Below, piece by piece: positions 914 to 42,125 of a stretch of 49,165 bases of DNA. The stretch spans positions 1 through 49,165 of the forward strand of contig JAJZSW010000012.1 of the NCBI GenBank assembly GCA_021849505.1. Direction: 5' to 3'. How positions within the stretch are numbered: the first letter of the stretch is position 1; each line of letters starts with the position of its first letter. The translations under genes were made by a program, and so were the position numbers. The notes under the pieces were generated by a model that worked only from the letters and a program-made list of their open reading frames with translations, was not told the origin of the DNA and made no database searches. This stretch comes from Pseudomonadota bacterium. Its GTDB lineage: Bacteria; Pseudomonadota; Gammaproteobacteria; Burkholderiales; Rhodocyclaceae.

Positions 914-1323
914 ACTGGGAAACCTTTCCCCACGAAGCCGACGTCGGCGTGCGCGGCACGGGCGACACGCTGGCCGAAGCCTTCGCCGGCGCGGCGACCG
1001 CGCTGACCGCGGTCATCTGCGATCCGGCAAAAGTCGGCGCCGGTGAGACGGCACGCATCGAATGCGCGGCGCCCGACGACGAGTTGCTGCTCGTCGACTG
1101 GCTCAATGCGCTGATCTACGAGATGGCGACGCGGCATCTGCTGTTCTCGCGCTTCAACGTCGCGATAAGCGGCCATCGCCTAAGCGCGACCGTACGAGGT
1201 GAGCCGGTGGATGTCGAGCGCCACCAGCCGGCGGCGGAGATCAAGGGCGCGACGTTCTGCGAACTGGTGGTGCGGCAGGAGCCAGATGGCCGCTGGCTGG
1301 CGCAATGCGTGGTGGACGTGTGA
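910..1323 (+). CDS. Archease, activator of the RtcB RNA ligase
   Basis: Archease (137 aa) promotes guanylylation and turnover of RtcB, making the ligase a multiple-turnover enzyme. Family features visible are the N-terminal [11 protein letters not shown], which carries the conserved His/Asp metal-binding region, the central [13 protein letters not shown] helix, and the C-terminal [10 protein letters not shown] followed by a terminal VVDV strand. The start is the ATG overlapping the polX stop, and rtcB begins 7 bases after this stop, so the three genes look like one transcription unit. A copy of the 26-bp dispersed repeat (25 of 26 matches) lies inside the gene and encodes [11 protein letters not shown]. 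Confidence 0.93.
1030..1055 (+). repeat. 26-bp dispersed repeat, copy 1 (inside archease)
   Basis: Matches the consensus (AAAGTCGGCGCYGGC then RRGACGGCACG) at 25 of 26 positions, the only difference being T at position 15. It is read in frame as KVGAGETAR. Confidence 0.85.
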
Positions 1324-5172: not shown

Positions 5173-7074
5173 ATGACCATGTTCGATACCGTTCGCAACA
5201 GCAAGAGAATCGTCCAGATCGTCCTGGCGATCATCATTCTGCCCTTCGCCTTGTGGGGCGTGGATTCCTATGTGAGCGGAGGGGGTAGCGCGAACGAGGT
5301 CGCGAGCGTTGGCAAGACGCCGATTACCCTGGATGAGTTTCAGCGCTCCCTGAGCGAGCAGCAGGATCGCTTGCGCCCCCAGGTGGGCAACAACGTGGCG
5401 CTGCTGGAAAGTCCCGAATTCCGCCGTGGCGTGCTGCAGGAGCTCATCAACCAGCGCTTGCTGTTAGTGCATGCCGGCAAGTCCCAAATGGGCATCAGCA
5501 ACGAGGCCTTGTCGGGGTTTATCGCTTCCTTGCCCGCCCTCCAGGAGGACGGCAAGTTTTCGCGCCAGCGCTATGAACAACTGGTCGCCGCCCAGAACAT
5601 GAGCGTCGAGCAATTCGAGGCCTTGCTGCGGCGCGACCTGCTGACGCAGCAGGTCACCATGCCGATCGGCAACGCCGCGCTGGCCGGCAATCTGCCCGCC
5701 GACCGCTGGCTCATGGCGCAGCTGGAAGAGCGCGAAATCGCCGAGGCGATCCTGCGCGTCGAGCAGTTCGCCGCGGACAGCAAGCCCGACGCGGCGGCGA
5801 TCCAGCGTTATTACGAGGAAAACCGCTCACGCTTCGAACAACCCGAGCAGGTCAGGGTCGAGTATCTGGTGCTGAGCCAGGCCAAGCTGATCGAAGCCGC
5901 CAGGATCAGCGAGGCCGACATCCAGGCCGCTTACGAGGCGAACGCGGCGCGCTACCGCAAGCCCGAGCAGCGGCGCGCCAGCCACATCCTGATCCGTGCC
6001 GACATGAATGCGCCGGCGGCCGAAATCAAGGCAGCGGAAGAAAAGGCGGGGCAGGTTCTCGCGCAAGTCAAGGCTGCTCCTGCCGACTTCGCCAGGCTGG
6101 CGAAGCAGCATTCGCAGGATCCGGGTTCGGCAGCCAATGGGGGCGACCTCGGCTTCTTCGGGCGCGGCATGATGGTCAAGCCCTTCGAGGAGGCGACCTA
6201 TGCCCTGCAGGAAAACCAGATTTCCGAAGTGATTCGCTCTGACTTCGGTTTCCACATCATCAAGCTGACCGGCATTCGCCCGGAACAGGCGCAAAAGCTC
6301 GAGGAGGTGCGCGGCGAGATCCAGGCGGAACTCAAGCGCCAGACCGGTGCGAAGCAGTATGTCGAAGCCGCCGAGGGCTTTTCCAATCTCGTCTATGAGC
6401 AGCCCGACAGCCTGAAGCCGGCCGCCGAAAAGTACGGGCTGGCGGTGCAAAACTCTGAGTGGCTGGCGCAGGGAGGGCAACTGCCTGCACCTTTCACCAA
6501 CGCCAAGCTGGTTCAGGCGGTGTTTTCCGAGGACGCCGTCAAGCACAAGCGCAATACCGAGGCGGTCGAAACCGCGCCGAACACACTGGTTTCCGCGCGG
6601 GTCGTCGAACACCAACCCGCCGAAGTCATCGCTCTCGAAAAGGTGAGCGGCGTGATCGCACAGGTATTAGTGCGCGAAGCCGCCCTGGCCAAGACGGAGG
6701 CGGCGGGACAGGCCGAGTTGGACAAACTGAAGCGCGGCGAAAAGTCCGCGCTGAGCTGGGGTACGCCGCGCATGGTCAGCCGCCTGCATGCGCCGAACCT
6801 GAGCCGCGAGGCGGGTCTGGCGGTGTTCGGCGCAAGCGGGCAGAAGCTGCCGGCCTACGCGGGCGTGAAGACCCCGCAGGGCTATGTGCTGTATCGCATC
6901 GACAAGGTAAAGGCCTTCGATCCGGCGGCAGCGGGCGAAGCCTTACCGCGTGCGGCGGCGCTGCGCCAGCAGTACAACGAGGTCATGGCGCGGGAAGACC
7001 TGATCAACTGGCTGGCTGCGCTGCGCGAGCAGTATGGCGTGAAGATCAACAGCGCCGCGCTGGAACGCAAATGA
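5173..7074 (+). CDS. ppiD: Membrane-anchored periplasmic chaperone/peptidyl-prolyl isomerase PpiD
   Basis: PpiD (633 aa) is an inner-membrane SurA-like chaperone at the Sec translocon exit that helps fold outer membrane and periplasmic proteins. Seen: a short cytosolic N terminus (FDTVRNSKR), one transmembrane anchor ([18 protein letters not shown]), a SurA-type chaperone region ([22 protein letters not shown]), and a parvulin domain at about residues 265-365 ([47 protein letters not shown]). A C-terminal chaperone half follows. In E. coli the parvulin domain lacks isomerase activity, so catalysis here is uncertain. The start is ATG 5173, with another in-frame ATG two codons on and no strong ribosome binding site. 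Confidence 0.93.
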
Positions 7075-7076
7075 CG

Positions 7077-7107
7077 AAAGTCAGTGCCGGCGAGACGGCA
7101 CTGACTT
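7077..7107 (+). terminator. Bidirectional terminator built from dispersed repeat copy 3
   Basis: AAGTCAGTGCCG (7078-7089) and CGGCACTGACTT (7096-7107) are perfect complements over 12 bp with a 6-base loop, followed by GTTT. This separates convergent ppiD and fabI. The same bases (7077-7102) match the dispersed-repeat consensus at 23 of 26 positions. The three differences include the A and T at positions 7 and 9 that complete the palindrome, so a repeat copy appears to have become a terminator. Confidence 0.85.
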
Positions 7108-7125
7108 GTTTACTGCGGCGTAATC

Positions 7126-7926
7126 TCAGGCGGGCAACGGTTCCGCGTTGCCCATGGCGACATTGTGCGTGCCGCCATCCACATAGAGCACTTCGCCGGT
7201 GATGCCGCTGGCGAGATCCGAAAGCAGGAAGGCGGCGGCGTTGCCCACTTCCTCGATCGTCACGTTGCGGCGCAGCGGCGCGTGGTGGGCGTTGTAGGCA
7301 AGCAGCTTGCCGAAGTTGCCGATGCCCGAGGCGGCCAGCGTCTTGATCGGGCCGGCGGACAGCGCGTTGGCGCGGATGCCCTGCGGCCCGAGGCTGAAGG
7401 CTAGATAGCGGGTCGCGGCTTCGAGGCTGGCCTTGGCCAGGCCCATCGTGTTGTAGTTGGGCATGGTGCGTTCGGCACCCAGATAGGAAAGGCAGACCAG
7501 CGAAGGCTTGTTGCCCTTCAGCAGCAGGGCGCGGCCGGCCTTCGCCAGCGCCGGGAAACTGTAGGAGGAAATCTCGTGCGCGATGCGGAAGTTCTCGCGC
7601 GAAATGCCGTCGAGGAAGTCGCCCTCGATGGCTTCGTTCGGGGCGTAGGCAATCGAATGCACGATGCCCTCGAGGCCATCCCAGCGCTGGGCGATCTGCT
7701 CGAAGCAGGCGGTAATCTGCGCATCGTCGGCGACATCGACCTGATAGATCATGTCGCTGCCGAACTCGGCAGCGAATTTCTGGATGCGCTCCTGGAAGCG
7801 TTCGTTCTGGTAGGTGAAGGCGAGTTGCGCACCTTCACGATGGCAAGCCTTGGCGATGCCATAGGCGATCGACCGGTTGGACAAGAGGCCGGTGATGAGA
7901 ATGCGCTTGCCGTCAAGAAAACCCAT
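7126..7926 (-). CDS. fabI: Enoyl-[acyl-carrier-protein] reductase (NADH)
   Basis: FabI performs the last reduction in each fatty-acid elongation cycle, using NADH. The 266-residue length is typical. Seen: the modified Rossmann signature [15 protein letters not shown] near the N terminus, ending DVADDAQI, the strand [14 protein letters not shown], and the catalytic region with [20 protein letters not shown] carrying the Tyr-x6-Lys pair. A C-terminal [10 protein letters not shown] follows. The start at MGFLDGK (7926) is preceded by GGGAGG at a good distance; an in-frame ATG five codons upstream would overlap that site. The gene is divergent from the lipoprotein gene and convergent with ppiD. 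Confidence 0.96.
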
Positions 7927-7962
7927 GCTGAATCCTCCCATTAACCTTCACAACGAGGGCGG

Positions 7963-7993: not shown

Positions 7994-10117
7994 ATGCGCT
8001 GGCCCAAGTACTTATTGTGCTCATTGTTGCTATTCATGCTGACGGCTTGCGGCACGGCATGGAACGATCCGTACCCGGCGGCCGATCGCGGCCGCAACAT
8101 TCTTTACACGGCCTTCACCGATCGTCCCAAGCATCTCGATCCGGTGCAGTCCTACAGCGAGGACGAGATCACCTTCACGGCGCAGATCTACGAGCCGCCG
8201 CTGCAATACCACTACCTGCGGCGGCCTTACGAACTGATTCCGGCGACAGCAGTCGCCGTGCCGCAACCGGTCTATCTCGACGCGCAAGGCAAGCCGCTGC
8301 CGCCAGCGGCGGAAGTGGCGCGCATCGCCTTCACCGATTATGTGGTCGAGATCAAGCCGGGCATCCGCTACCAGCCGCATCCGGCTTTCGCGGCACAGCC
8401 CGCCGACATCGCGGGTTTTCACACTCTGGCCGATTTCCCCAACCGCGGCACGCGCGAGCTGGTGGCTGACGACTATGTCTACGGGATCAAGCGGCTCGCG
8501 CATCCGCGCCTGCATTCGCCGATCCTCGGCCTGATGAGCGAATACATCGTCGGCCTCGGGGAACTCGCGCAGACATTGCAAAAGTCGGCGCCGGCGGGAC
8601 GGCACGCCGAGTGGCTGGATCTGCGCGCTACGCAGTTGGCTGGCGTCGAGGTCCTCGACCGCTACCGCTATCGCATCCGCATCAAGGGCAAGTATCCGCA
8701 GTTCCTCTACTGGCTGTCGATGCCCTTCTTCGCGCCGATGCCCTGGGAGGCGGACAGGTTCCACAGCCAGCCGGGCATGGCGGAAAAGAACCTGACGCTC
8801 GACTGGTATCCGGTCGGCACCGGGCCCTACATGCTGACCGAGAACAATCCGAACGCGCGCATGGTGCTCGAGAAGAATCCGAACTTCCGCGGCGAGACCT
8901 ATCCCTGCGACGGCGAACCCGAAGACCGGTCCAACGGACTGCTGGCCGATTGCGGCCAGCCGCTGCCCTTCATCGAGAAGGTGGTGTTCACGCGCGAGAA
9001 GGAGCAGATACCCTACTGGAACAAGTTCTTGCAGGGCTACTACGATGCCTCGGGCATCGCTTCCGATTCCTTCGACCAGGCCGTGCAGGTCGGGTCCGGC
9101 GGGGAGGTCTCGCTGACACCCGAGATGCGCAGGCAGGGGATCCGGCTGACGACATCGGTCGCGACCTCGACTTTCTACATGGGGTTCAACATGCTCGATC
9201 CGCTGGTCGGCGGCGGCAGCGAGAGCGCAAAGAAGCTCCGCCAGGCGATCGCGATCGCGATCGACCAGGAGGAGTTCATCTCGATCTTCATGAATGGCCG
9301 CGGCATCCCGGCCCAGAGCCCCTTGCCGCCGGGCATCTTCGGCTATCGCGAGGGGCGCGCCGGCATCAATCCGGTGATCTACGACTGGACCTCGCAAGGG
9401 CCGCAGCGCAAGGAGATTGCCGTGGCGAAGCGGCTGCTTGCCGAGGCCGGCTGGCCGAACGGCCGCAATGCCCGGACCGGCGAACCGCTCGTGGTGAACC
9501 TCGACACTACGGCCACGGGGGTCGGTGCCAAGGCGCGCATGGACTGGCTGAACAAGCAGTTCCAGAAGATCGATGCGCAACTGGTGGTGCGCAGCACCGA
9601 CTACAACCGCTTCCAGGAAAAAATCCGCAAGGGCGCGGTGCAGCTGTTTTATTACGGCTGGAACGCCGACTATCCCGATCCGGAGAACTTCCTGTTCCTG
9701 CTCCATGGTCCGCAGGGCAAGGGCGGACAGGGCGGGCAGAACGCCGCAAATTATGCCAATCCGGAATATGACCGGCTGTTCGAGCGGATGCAGGCGATGG
9801 AAAACAGTCCGGAGCGGCAGGCGATCATCGATCGCATGCTGGCGATCCTGCACGAGGACACGCCCTGGGTCTGGGGCTTCCATCCCAAGGATTACAGCCT
9901 GCGCCACGCCTGGCTGATGAATCGCAAGCCGACCAAGGTCGGCAACAACACGCTGAAATACCAGCGTGTCGATGCAGGGATGCGCGAGCAGCTGCGCGCG
10001 GAGTGGAACCGGCCGGTGATCTGGCCGCTGCTGCTGATTGCGGTGGTTCTGGGGGCGATCGCCTTGCCGGCGGTCATCGGACATCGGCGCCGCGAAGCCG
10101 CGACTGCCGGAAATTGA
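7994..10117 (+). CDS. ABC transporter substrate-binding lipoprotein (solute-binding family 5, peptide type)
   Basis: Belongs to the OppA/DppA-like extracellular solute-binding family 5, which captures peptides, opines or nickel complexes. A signal peptide with a lipobox (LLLFMLTAC) predicts a lipidated Cys at about residue 19. The body carries family features such as DRPKHLDPVQSYSEDE, LVADDYVYGIKRLAHP, YPVGTGPYMLTENNPN, and LRQAIAIAIDQEEF. At 707 residues it is longer than usual (about 500-600). It ends in an apparent transmembrane segment (WPLLLIAVVLGAIALPAVI) followed by basic residues, so it may be anchored at both ends. No permease or ATPase genes are adjacent, making it an orphan here. 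Confidence 0.85.
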   Translation: MRWPKYLLCSLLLFMLTACGTAWNDPYPAADRGRNILYTAFTDRPKHLDPVQSYSEDEITFTAQIYEPPLQYHYLRRPYELIPATAVAVPQPVYLDAQGKPLPPAAEVARIAFTDYVVEIKPGIRYQPHPAFAAQPADIAGFHTLADFPNRGTRELVADDYVYGIKRLAHPRLHSPILGLMSEYIVGLGELAQTLQKSAPAGRHAEWLDLRATQLAGVEVLDRYRYRIRIKGKYPQFLYWLSMPFFAPMPWEADRFHSQPGMAEKNLTLDWYPVGTGPYMLTENNPNARMVLEKNPNFRGETYPCDGEPEDRSNGLLADCGQPLPFIEKVVFTREKEQIPYWNKFLQGYYDASGIASDSFDQAVQVGSGGEVSLTPEMRRQGIRLTTSVATSTFYMGFNMLDPLVGGGSESAKKLRQAIAIAIDQEEFISIFMNGRGIPAQSPLPPGIFGYREGRAGINPVIYDWTSQGPQRKEIAVAKRLLAEAGWPNGRNARTGEPLVVNLDTTATGVGAKARMDWLNKQFQKIDAQLVVRSTDYNRFQEKIRKGAVQLFYYGWNADYPDPENFLFLLHGPQGKGGQGGQNAANYANPEYDRLFERMQAMENSPERQAIIDRMLAILHEDTPWVWGFHPKDYSLRHAWLMNRKPTKVGNNTLKYQRVDAGMREQLRAEWNRPVIWPLLLIAVVLGAIALPAVIGHRRREAATAGN
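8582..8607 (+). repeat. 26-bp dispersed repeat, copy 4 (inside the solute-binding lipoprotein gene)
   Basis: Perfect match to the consensus, 26 of 26. Read in frame as KSAPAGRHA, at a point where the family is not obviously constrained. Confidence 0.88.
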
Positions 10118-13142: not shown

Positions 13143-15704
13143 ATGACCACTGCTTTCGCCAAGGAAACCCTGCCCGTCAGTCTCGAAGAGGAAATGCGCC
13201 ATTCCTACCTCGATTACGCGATGAGCGTGATCGTCGGACGGGCGCTGCCGGACGCGCGTGACGGCCTCAAGCCCGTCCATCGCCGCGTGCTGTTCGCCAT
13301 GCACGAACTGAACAACGACTGGAACCGGGCCTACAAGAAATCGGCGCGCATCGTCGGCGACGTCATCGGTAAATACCACCCGCACGGCGACACGGCGGTT
13401 TACGACACGATCGTGCGCATGGCGCAGGACTTTTCGCTGCGCTACATGCTGGTCGACGGCCAGGGCAACTTCGGCTCGGTCGACGGTGACAACGCCGCGG
13501 CGATGCGTTACACCGAGGTGCGCATGGCGCGCATCGGCCACGAGCTGCTGGCCGACATCGAGAAGGAAACCTGCGATTTCGGCCCGAACTACGACGGTTC
13601 CGAGAGGGAACCGCTGATCCTGCCTGCGAAGATACCCAACCTGCTGATCAATGGCAGCGCGGGCATCGCTGTCGGCATGGCGACCAACATCCCGCCGCAT
13701 AACCTCAACGAAGTGATCGATGCCTGCCTGGCGCTGCTCGACAACCCGGCGCTCGAGATCGACGAACTGATCAAGATCATCCCGGCGCCCGACTTTCCGA
13801 CCGCCGGCCTGATTTACGGCGTGTCCGGCGTCAGGGAAGGCTACCTCACGGGAAGAGGGCGGGTCATCATGCGTGCCCGCACCCATTTCGAGGACCTGGA
13901 GCGCGGCGGCAGGCAGGCCATCGTCGTCGATGAGCTGCCCTACCAGGTCAACAAGAAGACCCTGCAGGAAAAAATTGCCGAACTCGTCAACGAGAAGAAG
14001 ATCGAGGGCATCGCCCACATCCAGGACGAGTCCGACAAGTCCGGCATGCGGCTGGTGATCGAGCTCAAGAAGGGCGAAGTGCCCGAGGTGGTGCTCAACA
14101 ACCTGTTCAAGCAGACGCAGCTGCAGGACACCTTCGGCATGAACATGGTGGCGCTGGTCGACGGCCGCCCGCAGCTGCTGAACCTGAAACAGCTTCTGGA
14201 GTGCTTCCTCTCGCATCGCCGCGAAGTGGTGACGCGGCGCACCGTCTTCGAGTTGCGCAAGGCGCGCGAGCGCGGCCATGTGCTGGAAGGCCTGGCGGTC
14301 GCATTGTCGAACGTCGACGAGATCATCGCGCTGATCAAGGCGGCGCCGACGCCGGCCGACGCCAAGCGCGAACTGATGGCGCGCACCTGGCGTTCCGCGC
14401 TGGTCGAGGAAATGCTGCTGCGCGCCTCCGCCGAGGCTTCGCGCCCCGAAGGCCTGGCGCCGGAGTTCGGCCTGTCGCGCCGCGGCTACCTGCTCTCCGA
14501 CGGGCAGGCGCAGGCGATCCTCGAACTGCGCTTGCAGCGTTTGACCGGCCTCGAACAGGACAAGATCGTCGCCGAGTACAAGGAAGTGATGGAAATCATC
14601 ACCGACCTGCTCGACATCCTCGCCCGTCCCGAGCGCATCACCCAGATTATCGGCGAGGAACTGAATGCCATCAAGGCGCAGTTCGGCGACAAGCGCCGCT
14701 CCGAGATCGTGCTGCAGACCGCCGACATCAACCTCGAGGACCTGATCGCCCGCGAGGACATGGTGGTGACGCTCTCGCACGGCGGCTACTTCAAGCGCCA
14801 GAGCCTCGACGACTACCGCACGCAGAAGCGCGGCGGGCGCGGCAAGCAGGCGGCGGCGATCAAGGAAGACGACTTCGTCGACCGGCTGTTCATCGCCAAC
14901 ACGCACGACTACATCCTGTGCTTCTCGAACCGCGGCCGCGTCTATTGGCTCAAGGTCTACGAGGTGCCGGAAGGCACGCGCAATTCGCGCGGCAAGCCGA
15001 TCGTCAATCTCTTCCCGCTGGAGGAGGGCGAGAAGATCACTGCCGTCCTGCCAACGCCGACTTTCGACGCGAGCCACTACATTTTCATGGCGACGGCGAT
15101 GGGCACGGTCAAGAAGACGCCGCTCACCGATTTCGCCAACCCGCGCAAGGCCGGCATCATCGCCGTCAGCCTCGACGAGGGCGACTTCCTGATCGGCGTG
15201 GCGATCACCGACGGCAGTTGCGACGTGATGCTGTTCTCCGACGCCGGCAAGGCGGTGCGCTTCGCCGAGGACGATGTGCGGCCGATGGGCCGCAACGCGC
15301 GCGGCGTGCGCGGCATGATGCTCGAAGACGGCCAGGCGGTGATCTGCATGCTGGTGGCGCAGGACGAAAGCCTCAACGTGCTGACGGCCACCGAAAACGG
15401 CTACGGCAAGCGCACACCGATCGCCGACTACACCAAGCATGGCCGCGGCACCAAGGGCATGATCGCGATCAGCACCTCCGATCGCAACGGCGCCGTCGTC
15501 GGCGCCGTGCTCGTCGAGGGGAACGACGAAGTGATGCTGATCTCGACCGGCGGCGTGCTGATCCGCAGCAAGGTGGAGCAGGTGCGCGAAACCGGCCGCT
15601 CGGCCCAGGGTGTGCGGCTTATCAACCTCGACGACGGCACCAGGCTGGCCGGCATCGAGAAGGTCATCGAAACCGAAGAAGCGGAAGCGGACGAAGGGGA
15701 ATAG
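13143..15704 (+). CDS. gyrA: DNA gyrase subunit A
   Basis: GyrA cuts and rejoins DNA in the A2B2 gyrase that introduces negative supercoils. The 853-residue length is close to the usual 875. Seen: [19 protein letters not shown], the quinolone-resistance region [18 protein letters not shown], the catalytic tyrosine in AAAMRYTE, a coiled-coil tower region, and a C-terminal beta-pinwheel beginning near KRGGRGKQ, the GyrA box. Threonine stands where E. coli has Ser83; this is normal in several wild-type species and is not by itself resistance. Start ATG 13143 agrees with the family N terminus ([20 protein letters not shown]). A dispersed-repeat copy in the pinwheel encodes AVLPTPTF, where other GyrA proteins usually have a different loop. 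serC starts 2 bases after the stop. Confidence 0.98.
15039..15064 (-). repeat. 26-bp dispersed repeat, copy 5 (inside gyrA, antisense)
   Basis: Matches the consensus at 23 of 26 positions on the minus strand. The gene reads through it as TAVLPTPTF in the C-terminal pinwheel. Confidence 0.82.
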
Positions 15705-37249: not shown

Positions 37250-37275
37250 CGTGCCGTCATGCCGGCGCCGACTTT
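37250..37275 (-). repeat. 26-bp dispersed repeat, copy 12 (between divergent cyanophycin-locus genes)
   Basis: Matches the consensus at 25 of 26 positions on the minus strand. It is the only intergenic copy not placed directly after a stop codon; it lies 37 bases upstream of the ABC exporter start, where a promoter would be expected. Confidence 0.87.
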
Positions 37276-42099: not shown

Positions 42100-42125
42100 A
42101 TAGTCGGCGCTGGCAAGACGGCACG
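42100..42125 (+). repeat. 26-bp dispersed repeat, copy 13 (6 bases after the cphA stop)
   Basis: Matches the consensus at 25 of 26 positions, on the same strand as cphA and 6 bases past its stop. The downstream bases allow a further GGCAAG/CTTGCC pairing but with no T run. Confidence 0.88.

Follow-up and report, generated by a model that had tools for sequence, protein, structure and literature searches.

A copy of a genus-wide 25-bp element forms a hairpin between the convergent genes ppiD and fabI of a Rhodocyclaceae genome and is a probable bidirectional terminator

The stretch of DNA analysed here, called the window in the following, comprises 49,165 nucleotides of a contig from a genome of the Rhodocyclaceae. 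Within it the convergent genes ppiD and fabI are separated by a gap of 51 bp (positions 7075–7125), the stop codon of ppiD ending at 7074 and the reading frame of fabI occupying positions 7126–7941 of the minus strand. Thirty of the 51 bp (7078–7107) are taken up by a hairpin with a perfect stem of 12 bp, in which AAGTCAGTGCCG (7078–7089) pairs with CGGCACTGACTT (7096–7107) without any mismatch around the loop GCGAGA. The initial annotation had placed a perfect 12-bp stem in this convergent gap, and its coordinates and pairing are correct. The 5′ arm, the loop and half of the 3′ arm belong to a copy of a dispersed 25-bp element. The features of the locus are as follows.

5173–7074, plus strand: ppiD, the upstream convergent gene (from reading frame and relatives; gene name from the initial annotation)
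7069–7079, minus strand: T-rich stretch TTTCGTCATTT in the direction of fabI, two stem bases included (from the tail score)
7077–7101, plus strand: element copy, A7/T9/C12 variant, AAAGTCAGTGCCGGCGAGACGGCAC, with 2 mismatches to AAAGTCGGCGCYGGCNNGACGGCAC (consensus of 163 copies)
7078–7089, plus strand: 5′ arm of the hairpin, AAGTCAGTGCCG, element positions 2–13
7090–7095, plus strand: loop GCGAGA, element positions 14–19 (from folding)
7096–7107, plus strand: 3′ arm of the hairpin, CGGCACTGACTT, of which 7096–7101 is element and 7102–7107 is complementary flank
7106–7112, plus strand: T-rich stretch TTGTTTA, last two stem bases included (from the tail score)
7126–7941, minus strand: fabI, the convergent gene (from reading frame and relatives; gene name from the initial annotation)

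Folding of the plus strand yields a minimum free energy of −22.9 kcal/mol (z −4.2) and folding of the minus strand −21.3 kcal/mol (z −4.7), values which none of 200 shuffled sequences reached in either case. A search of positions 6900–7300 against Rfam returned a single match (18.4 bits, E 0.87), below the gathering score of 50. As the element ends at 7101, the flank consists of the six bases TGACTT at 7102–7107. The element itself contains an imperfect quasi-dyad, GCGCYG...CGGCAC, which gives the inner part of the stem; the outer part is formed with the flank, which is not element sequence.

The genome of the window, whose nearest named relatives are metagenome-assembled genomes of the Rhodocyclaceae, was available as 2.75 Mb in 161 contigs (94% complete). 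Searched with up to three mismatches it contains 502 matches to AAAGTCGGCGCCGGCNNGACGGCAC, the spelling with C at position 12, and 553 matches to AAAGTCGGCGCYGGCNNGACGGCAC, which allows either pyrimidine there; the reversed controls gave 0 matches in both searches. In a sample of 697 kb, made up of the window and 40 further stretches, 158 copies were found at the same threshold, compared to 0 in the control. Conservation spans 25–26 positions and drops abruptly to background at both ends (163 copies), three of the 25 element positions being loosely conserved. Copies in the window other than the one after ppiD are listed below.

1030–1054, plus strand: element copy with 1 mismatch, genic
8581–8605, plus strand: element copy with 0 mismatches, in the next gene, where it reads KSAPAGRH
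15040–15064, minus strand: element copy with 2 mismatches, within the reading frame 13143–15704
37251–37275, minus strand: element copy with 0 mismatches, between divergent genes
42100–42124, plus strand: element copy with 1 mismatch, intergenic, a stop codon lying 6 bp before it

When up to four mismatches are allowed the sample holds 170 copies, 107 of them genic and 63 non-genic, with genes as called by a codon-usage script of our own. Fifty copies are located in gaps of 25 bp or more, which account for 6.6% of the sampled sequence (p 9e-20). The genic copies use all six frames unevenly (40, 37, 15, 12, 2, and 1 copies). Twenty of the 170 copies start at most 3 nt from a gene end, where 1.2 would be expected (17-fold), and 18 of these 20 have the same orientation as the gene. 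In eight of the twenty gene-end copies the first A of the element is also the last A of the stop codon. With 10 copies in 5.3 kb, convergent gaps are not significantly richer than tandem gaps (36 in 30.0 kb, p 0.21), and divergent gaps are sparser than convergent ones (4 in 10.4 kb, p 0.008). A replication-polar motif was considered and is ruled out, as the two orientations show no bias relative to GC skew, which served as proxy for the replication strand: forward and reverse copies number 51 and 44 in skew-positive contigs of this genome and 37 and 38 in the others, and in the related genome G017, which is one closed contig, they number 16 and 25 in skew-positive stretches and 14 and 19 in the others.

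One site allowed the origin of a copy to be traced. An element-like sequence at the site of 8581–8605 is present in nine genomes or loci in all, the window and eight others (L031–L036, L042, and L106). Seven relatives lack it there; six of these align without a gap and one carries three extra residues upstream. As six of seven element-free relatives align gap-free, the copy at this one site was written by substitution rather than inserted. In L033 the element at this site is spelled ACTCGG...GGGGCGGCGG.

Compared to the consensus of 163 copies, the copy at 7077–7101 departs at three positions, as had been stated in the initial annotation: A at position 7 (A7; G in 92% of copies), T at position 9 (T9; C in 90%), and C at position 12 (T in 70%, C in 28%). 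The further proposal that A7 and T9 turned this copy into a terminator did not hold. A7 pairs with a base of the flank, and only T9 restores a pair within the element, with A24. The two letters occur jointly in six of the 170 sampled copies, where about 1.2 would be expected from their separate frequencies, and a search of whole genomes with the A7/T9 form AAGTCAGTNNNGGCNNGACGGCA found it 12 times in this genome, twice in its sister G018, and in none of 17 others. A gene on contig C146 contains the identical 25-mer, and the bases that flank it there do not lengthen the stem. A7/T9 is recurrent, including this identical genic 25-mer without the hairpin seen after ppiD, and is therefore read as a rarer way in which this lineage spells the element, perhaps an emerging dialect. 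The hairpin was not made by two substitutions, because the outer six bases of its 3′ arm lie outside the element, and a terminator made by these two changes is ruled out accordingly. Copies with A7 and T9 were located on contigs C54, C78, C81, C116, C117, C129, C145, C146, C160, and C161 (loci L223 and L225–L235). They vary at positions 10–12, which breaks the stem in several of them. Among 162 sampled copies with full flanks the one at 7077 is alone in having seven pairs outward from pair 8–25, the runner-up having five.

The initial annotation had suggested a comparison of the orthologous gap in related strains, and this was carried out. A gap between ppiD and a convergent fabI could be measured in 15 of 19 genomes of the genus; left out were G006, where fabI does not converge on ppiD, G011 and G015, whose loci lack fabI, and G014, which gave no complete match to ppiD. 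The loci L031–L036 and L106 were taken as G004, G013, G016, G001, G012, G007, and G003, respectively, on account of the same ppiD identities and gap lengths. Ten of the 15 gaps contain the element: those of the window, G017, G002 (5 mismatches), G004, G016, G013, G012, G001, G007 (4 mismatches), and G003. It is absent from five, namely G018, where the gap measures 6 bp, and G005, G008, G009, and G010, which have element-free hairpins. Across the ten genomes the element occurs at this site in two orientations and at offsets of 3 to 49 bp.

Related hairpins are formed in several of these gaps. In G004 the hairpin AGTCGG-C-GCTG/CGGC-A-CCGACT uses the flank CCGACT and has a C·A mismatch at pair 9–24. 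G017 has a shorter form of the hairpin of the window with the flank CCGAC and the same C·A mismatch at pair 9–24, G002 likewise has a shorter form, and G016 has a stem of 10 bp in its own spelling. In G001 and G012 the element is reversed and has a long partner arm and six T, which makes a good-looking terminator of different build. The hairpin of G013 pairs a different part of the element (GGCGGGA/TCCCGCC), and in G003 a copy with 0 mismatches lies in the gap without an extended hairpin (−8.7 kcal/mol). Outside the genus the gap after ppiD contains unrelated GC-rich hairpins, several with T runs, and no match with up to six mismatches was found in the gap or in the stretch behind ppiD in 73 other named loci and in six genomes, among them G019, from other genera of this family; L093 gave a hit with seven. 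Most relatives show some hairpin between ppiD and fabI, with or without the element. A hairpin without element-like sequence, which the initial annotation had named as the finding that would speak against it, is seen in G005, G008, G009, and G010, four of the 15 genomes, and beyond the genus; the near clade, by which we mean this genome, G018, G004, G017, G002, and G016, shows no such case. Within the near clade only G018 has lost both element and hairpin. The hairpin is dispensable, as this sister genome has neither in its 6-bp gap.

In a tree of ppiD the window groups with G018 (support 94/91), these two with G004, G017, and G002 (100/98), and then with G016 (100/99); the tree was rooted by midpoint and its deeper forks are weak or open. 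Four close relatives have the hairpin in a weaker or shorter form, and it thus probably antedates this genome. On the simplest reading the ancestor of the near clade already had it, G018 then lost it, and in this genome the stem became perfect. An alignment of five genomes shows three pairs changed on both sides: 4–29 (GC to CG in G016), 7–26 (GC to AU here), and 9–24. Positions 26 and 29 both lie outside the element, and flank bases there have therefore followed the letters of the element. A24G in G016 was initially considered as local compensation for C9; this was dropped, since most of the listed copies of G016 carry G24, and for the same reason only the flank positions 26 and 29 were counted as compensation. 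The covariation score of 0.233 compares to 0.168 ± 0.029 in shuffles, 16 of 500 being as high; the proportion of paired cells, reached in 76 of 500 shuffles, does not stand out. Drawn from five sequences and some two clear-cut events, the covariation speaks modestly for selection on the stem.

Transcription of ppiD and fabI is likely to be terminated by this hairpin in both directions, as judged from its sequence. Its tails were evaluated by a score whose formula we take to be that of TransTerm. Counted from the end of a 10-bp stem the score is −4.0 on the plus strand, which 0.8% of intergenic 15-mers reach, and −3.89 on the minus strand (1.0%); counted from the end of the full 12-bp stem the corresponding shares are 9% and 10.6%. 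The T tracts are thus short unless the two outer A–U pairs are counted as tail, and a simple terminator scan did not have the hairpin at 7077–7107 among its sites. Other convergent gaps contain hairpins of similar build, with stems of 11–20 bp and several with A...T outer pairs. Thirty convergent gaps of 15 to about 480 bp were sampled in this genome, and 10 of them have a strong hairpin, defined by a score of our own of at least 28, a threshold set after the scores had been seen. Two of these ten are based on the element, the one at 7077–7107 and one at C35:27785, where 13 bases of the element recur in reverse in the flank.

Stems of at least 10 bp between element and 3′ flank are formed by 3 of 13 copies in convergent gaps compared to 0.5 in shuffles, by 5 of 57 intergenic copies compared to 0.7, and by 8 of 105 genic copies compared to 2.9. 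An inner dyad extended by at least five pairs is found in 2 of 57 intergenic and 8 of 105 genic copies and is thus not commoner in intergenic ones. The initial annotation saw in this locus a dispersed element being recruited as a bidirectional terminator. As a general trend this is not borne out, with only two of ten strong hairpins based on the element and intergenic copies extending the dyad no more than genic ones. For the locus itself it stands insofar as the copy forms a long hairpin in a convergent gap; termination is what these features suggest, and the route by two substitutions fell. That the element acts in general as a hairpin or at the RNA level was also rejected, in view of the variation of A7/T9 copies at positions 10–12 and of the extended stems not being commoner intergenically.

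The explanation best supported is that an element copy and a complementary six-base flank together form a bidirectional hairpin which likely ends transcription of ppiD and fabI, and which was inherited and then perfected in this genome. This is considered probable. A copy of the genus-wide, uptake-sequence-like element would sit right after ppiD, its quasi-dyad providing the inner stem and the complementary non-element flank the outer one. The hairpin would probably go back to an ancestor shared by the whole near clade; T9 would repair the C9·A24 mismatch in this genome, and flank base 26 would have tracked the A7 spelling of the element (from G7–C26 to A7–U26). Alternatively, the element could be there for an uptake-type reason of its own, next to a flank which happens to be complementary and has no function. 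For each copy, the chance of the flank TGACTT is 1.7e-4 if computed from base composition and 2.6e-4 if computed from its intergenic frequency (24 of 90,764), so that over 502 copies it is expected 0.09–0.13 times, a figure that leaves room for such a coincidence and is suggestive, not decisive, against it. Genic copies also show extended stems, the hairpin is missing in G018, and the G003 copy lies in the same gap without an extended hairpin. The case against coincidence is carried by the hairpin shared among relatives: GACT or GAC in the flank is common to G004 and G017, flank letters 26 and 29 follow those of the element, and most relatives have some hairpin in this convergent gap even where the element is lacking. 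A flank of this kind without function is therefore unlikely.

An ordinary terminator might also have come first and then drifted towards the element, or the element might have been selected inside an existing terminator. The unrelated GC-rich hairpins after ppiD outside the genus, several of them with T runs, and the element-free hairpins within the genus (G005, G008, G009, G010) would agree with this order of events, whereas the two orientations, the offsets of 3–49 bp, and G003 with an element and no extended hairpin fit the element having been first; the root is poorly resolved. This order is regarded as quite improbable. Given that the element contains an imperfect dyad of its own (GCGCYG/CGGCAC) and occurs in hundreds of copies, a mobile miniature repeat of the MITE or REP type, with the palindromic form as the original and the other copies decayed, had also to be weighed. 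Its flanks are not conserved, however, 107 of the 170 sampled copies are genic, and the sharp edges of conservation together with the substitution origin at 8581, where six of seven element-free relatives align gap-free, rule it out for practical purposes.

The element itself, which is uptake-sequence-like, is a larger discovery than the hairpin. A total of 41 genomes was searched. In 18 of the 19 genomes from the genus of the window the copies on the two strands add up to 177–689, and in G006, placed in this genus too, to 0; G019, from another genus of the family, has 306 copies and the remaining 21 genomes have 0–4. A k-mer search of 334 kb of G006 for another dispersed motif found none on a par with what G017 gave as control. 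Spelling variants exist: among the copies listed, those of G016 mostly have G19 and G24 and often C4, and A7/T9 is found only here and in the sister G018. Of the properties of uptake sequences, the element has abundance, both orientations, genic copies in several frames, and an origin by substitution (one site), and with 25–26 conserved positions it departs from a motif core of about 9–12 bp. ComEC is encoded in 24 of 25 genomes (not found in G018, which is 83% complete), DprA was above the cut-off in 13 of 14 (not in G019), and PilQ was found in 14 of 14; as element-free G006 has ComEC, DprA, and PilQ, competence genes do not discriminate. Two of 20 stretches sampled from G017 are without any copy. 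One (L206, G017:C1:560001–580000, GC 0.546) is a ribosomal-protein/secY/rpoA cluster, and the other (L215, G017:C1:1820001–1840000, GC 0.699) holds a phage-tail domain protein; ribosomal and phage-like stretches are, in these two cases, where one would expect an uptake sequence to be missing, whereas exact copies do occur in 28 viral contigs (see below).

The DNA uptake sequence (DUS) of Neisseria has been described as a motif present in hundreds of copies, genic and intergenic, with spelling variants and with some copies in hairpins at gene ends (PMC2397512, PMC3630211, PMC1852404). On that description the element resembles the DUS in being abundant, genic and intergenic, variant in spelling among relatives, and reused in a hairpin; it differs in its length of 25 bp compared to 10–12. 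Terminators of Neisseria and Pasteurellaceae are often formed by closely spaced complementary uptake sequences, such inverted pairs being frequent in N. meningitidis, for which 94 hairpins in 268 tail-to-tail regions are listed (PMC1852404, Table 4), and the inverted DUS copies of a pair do not overlap (PMC3630211). The present hairpin is unlike a DUS pair, being made of one element and a complementary flank with a 3′ arm that starts inside the element. No close pairs of elements (at most 150 bp apart) were found in 167 neighbour pairs of this genome, except for the 7077 copy matching itself on the other strand, nor among 78 copies sampled from G017. A terminator of paired elements is ruled out, as there is no second element here and no close pairs occur in the samples. 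The analogy to paired uptake sequences of Neisseria drawn in the initial annotation fails on the same points, a single element with its flank and no close pairs in either sample; the idea of a mark reused as a terminator holds as in Neisseria, and the construction differs.

With the uptake signal sequence (USS) of Pasteurellaceae (PMC1852404, PMC2346458) the element shares an A tract at the start, a long extended motif, location in reading frames, and copies in terminators. It is unlike the USS in being GC-rich, in being conserved over 25 positions, in having no AT-rich extension, and in belonging to another bacterial class. To an ordinary intrinsic bidirectional terminator the hairpin is similar in its GC-rich stem, its A...T ends, and its position between convergent genes, and dissimilar in that its 5′ arm and half of its 3′ arm are a genome-wide element and that its T tract is weak. 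In the literature searched, which lacked most subscription papers, no report of an uptake-like element in Rhodocyclaceae and no paper joining the terms DNA uptake sequence and Rhodocyclaceae was found, and the letters AAAGTCGGCGC matched only in five papers, which are on plants as judged by title.

A wider reading is put forward tentatively and falls just short of being probable. The element would then be a third, independently evolved uptake sequence, with dialects, written by substitution, kept at one gene position in nine genomes, absent from the sampled ribosomal cluster and phage-like stretch, and employed secondarily as one half of terminator hairpins, the other half being ordinary flank that co-evolves with its spelling. 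If it is an uptake sequence, self-marking of DNA would have evolved beyond the Neisseriaceae and Pasteurellaceae, and the reasons for which such marks arise could be tested in a genus that has both spelling variants and the element-free G006. The hairpin after ppiD would then illustrate a second route from mark to terminator, by one mark and a flank that tracks its letters, not by two marks meeting.

Exact matches to 24 bases of the element were also found in 28 viral contigs of IMG/VR (L236–L263), with one match each in 27 of them. These contigs may be prophages or phages of this genus, and the matches neither support nor exclude a role in uptake. The remaining contig, the phage-like L241 (IMGVR_UViG_3300009945_000063), contains four exact elements and a fifth with an altered end between positions 883 and 2239. 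They sit in repeated units, each about 316–385 bp long, and these units also contain GCCTAAC...GTTAGGC stretches, which presumably resemble the attC sites of integrons.
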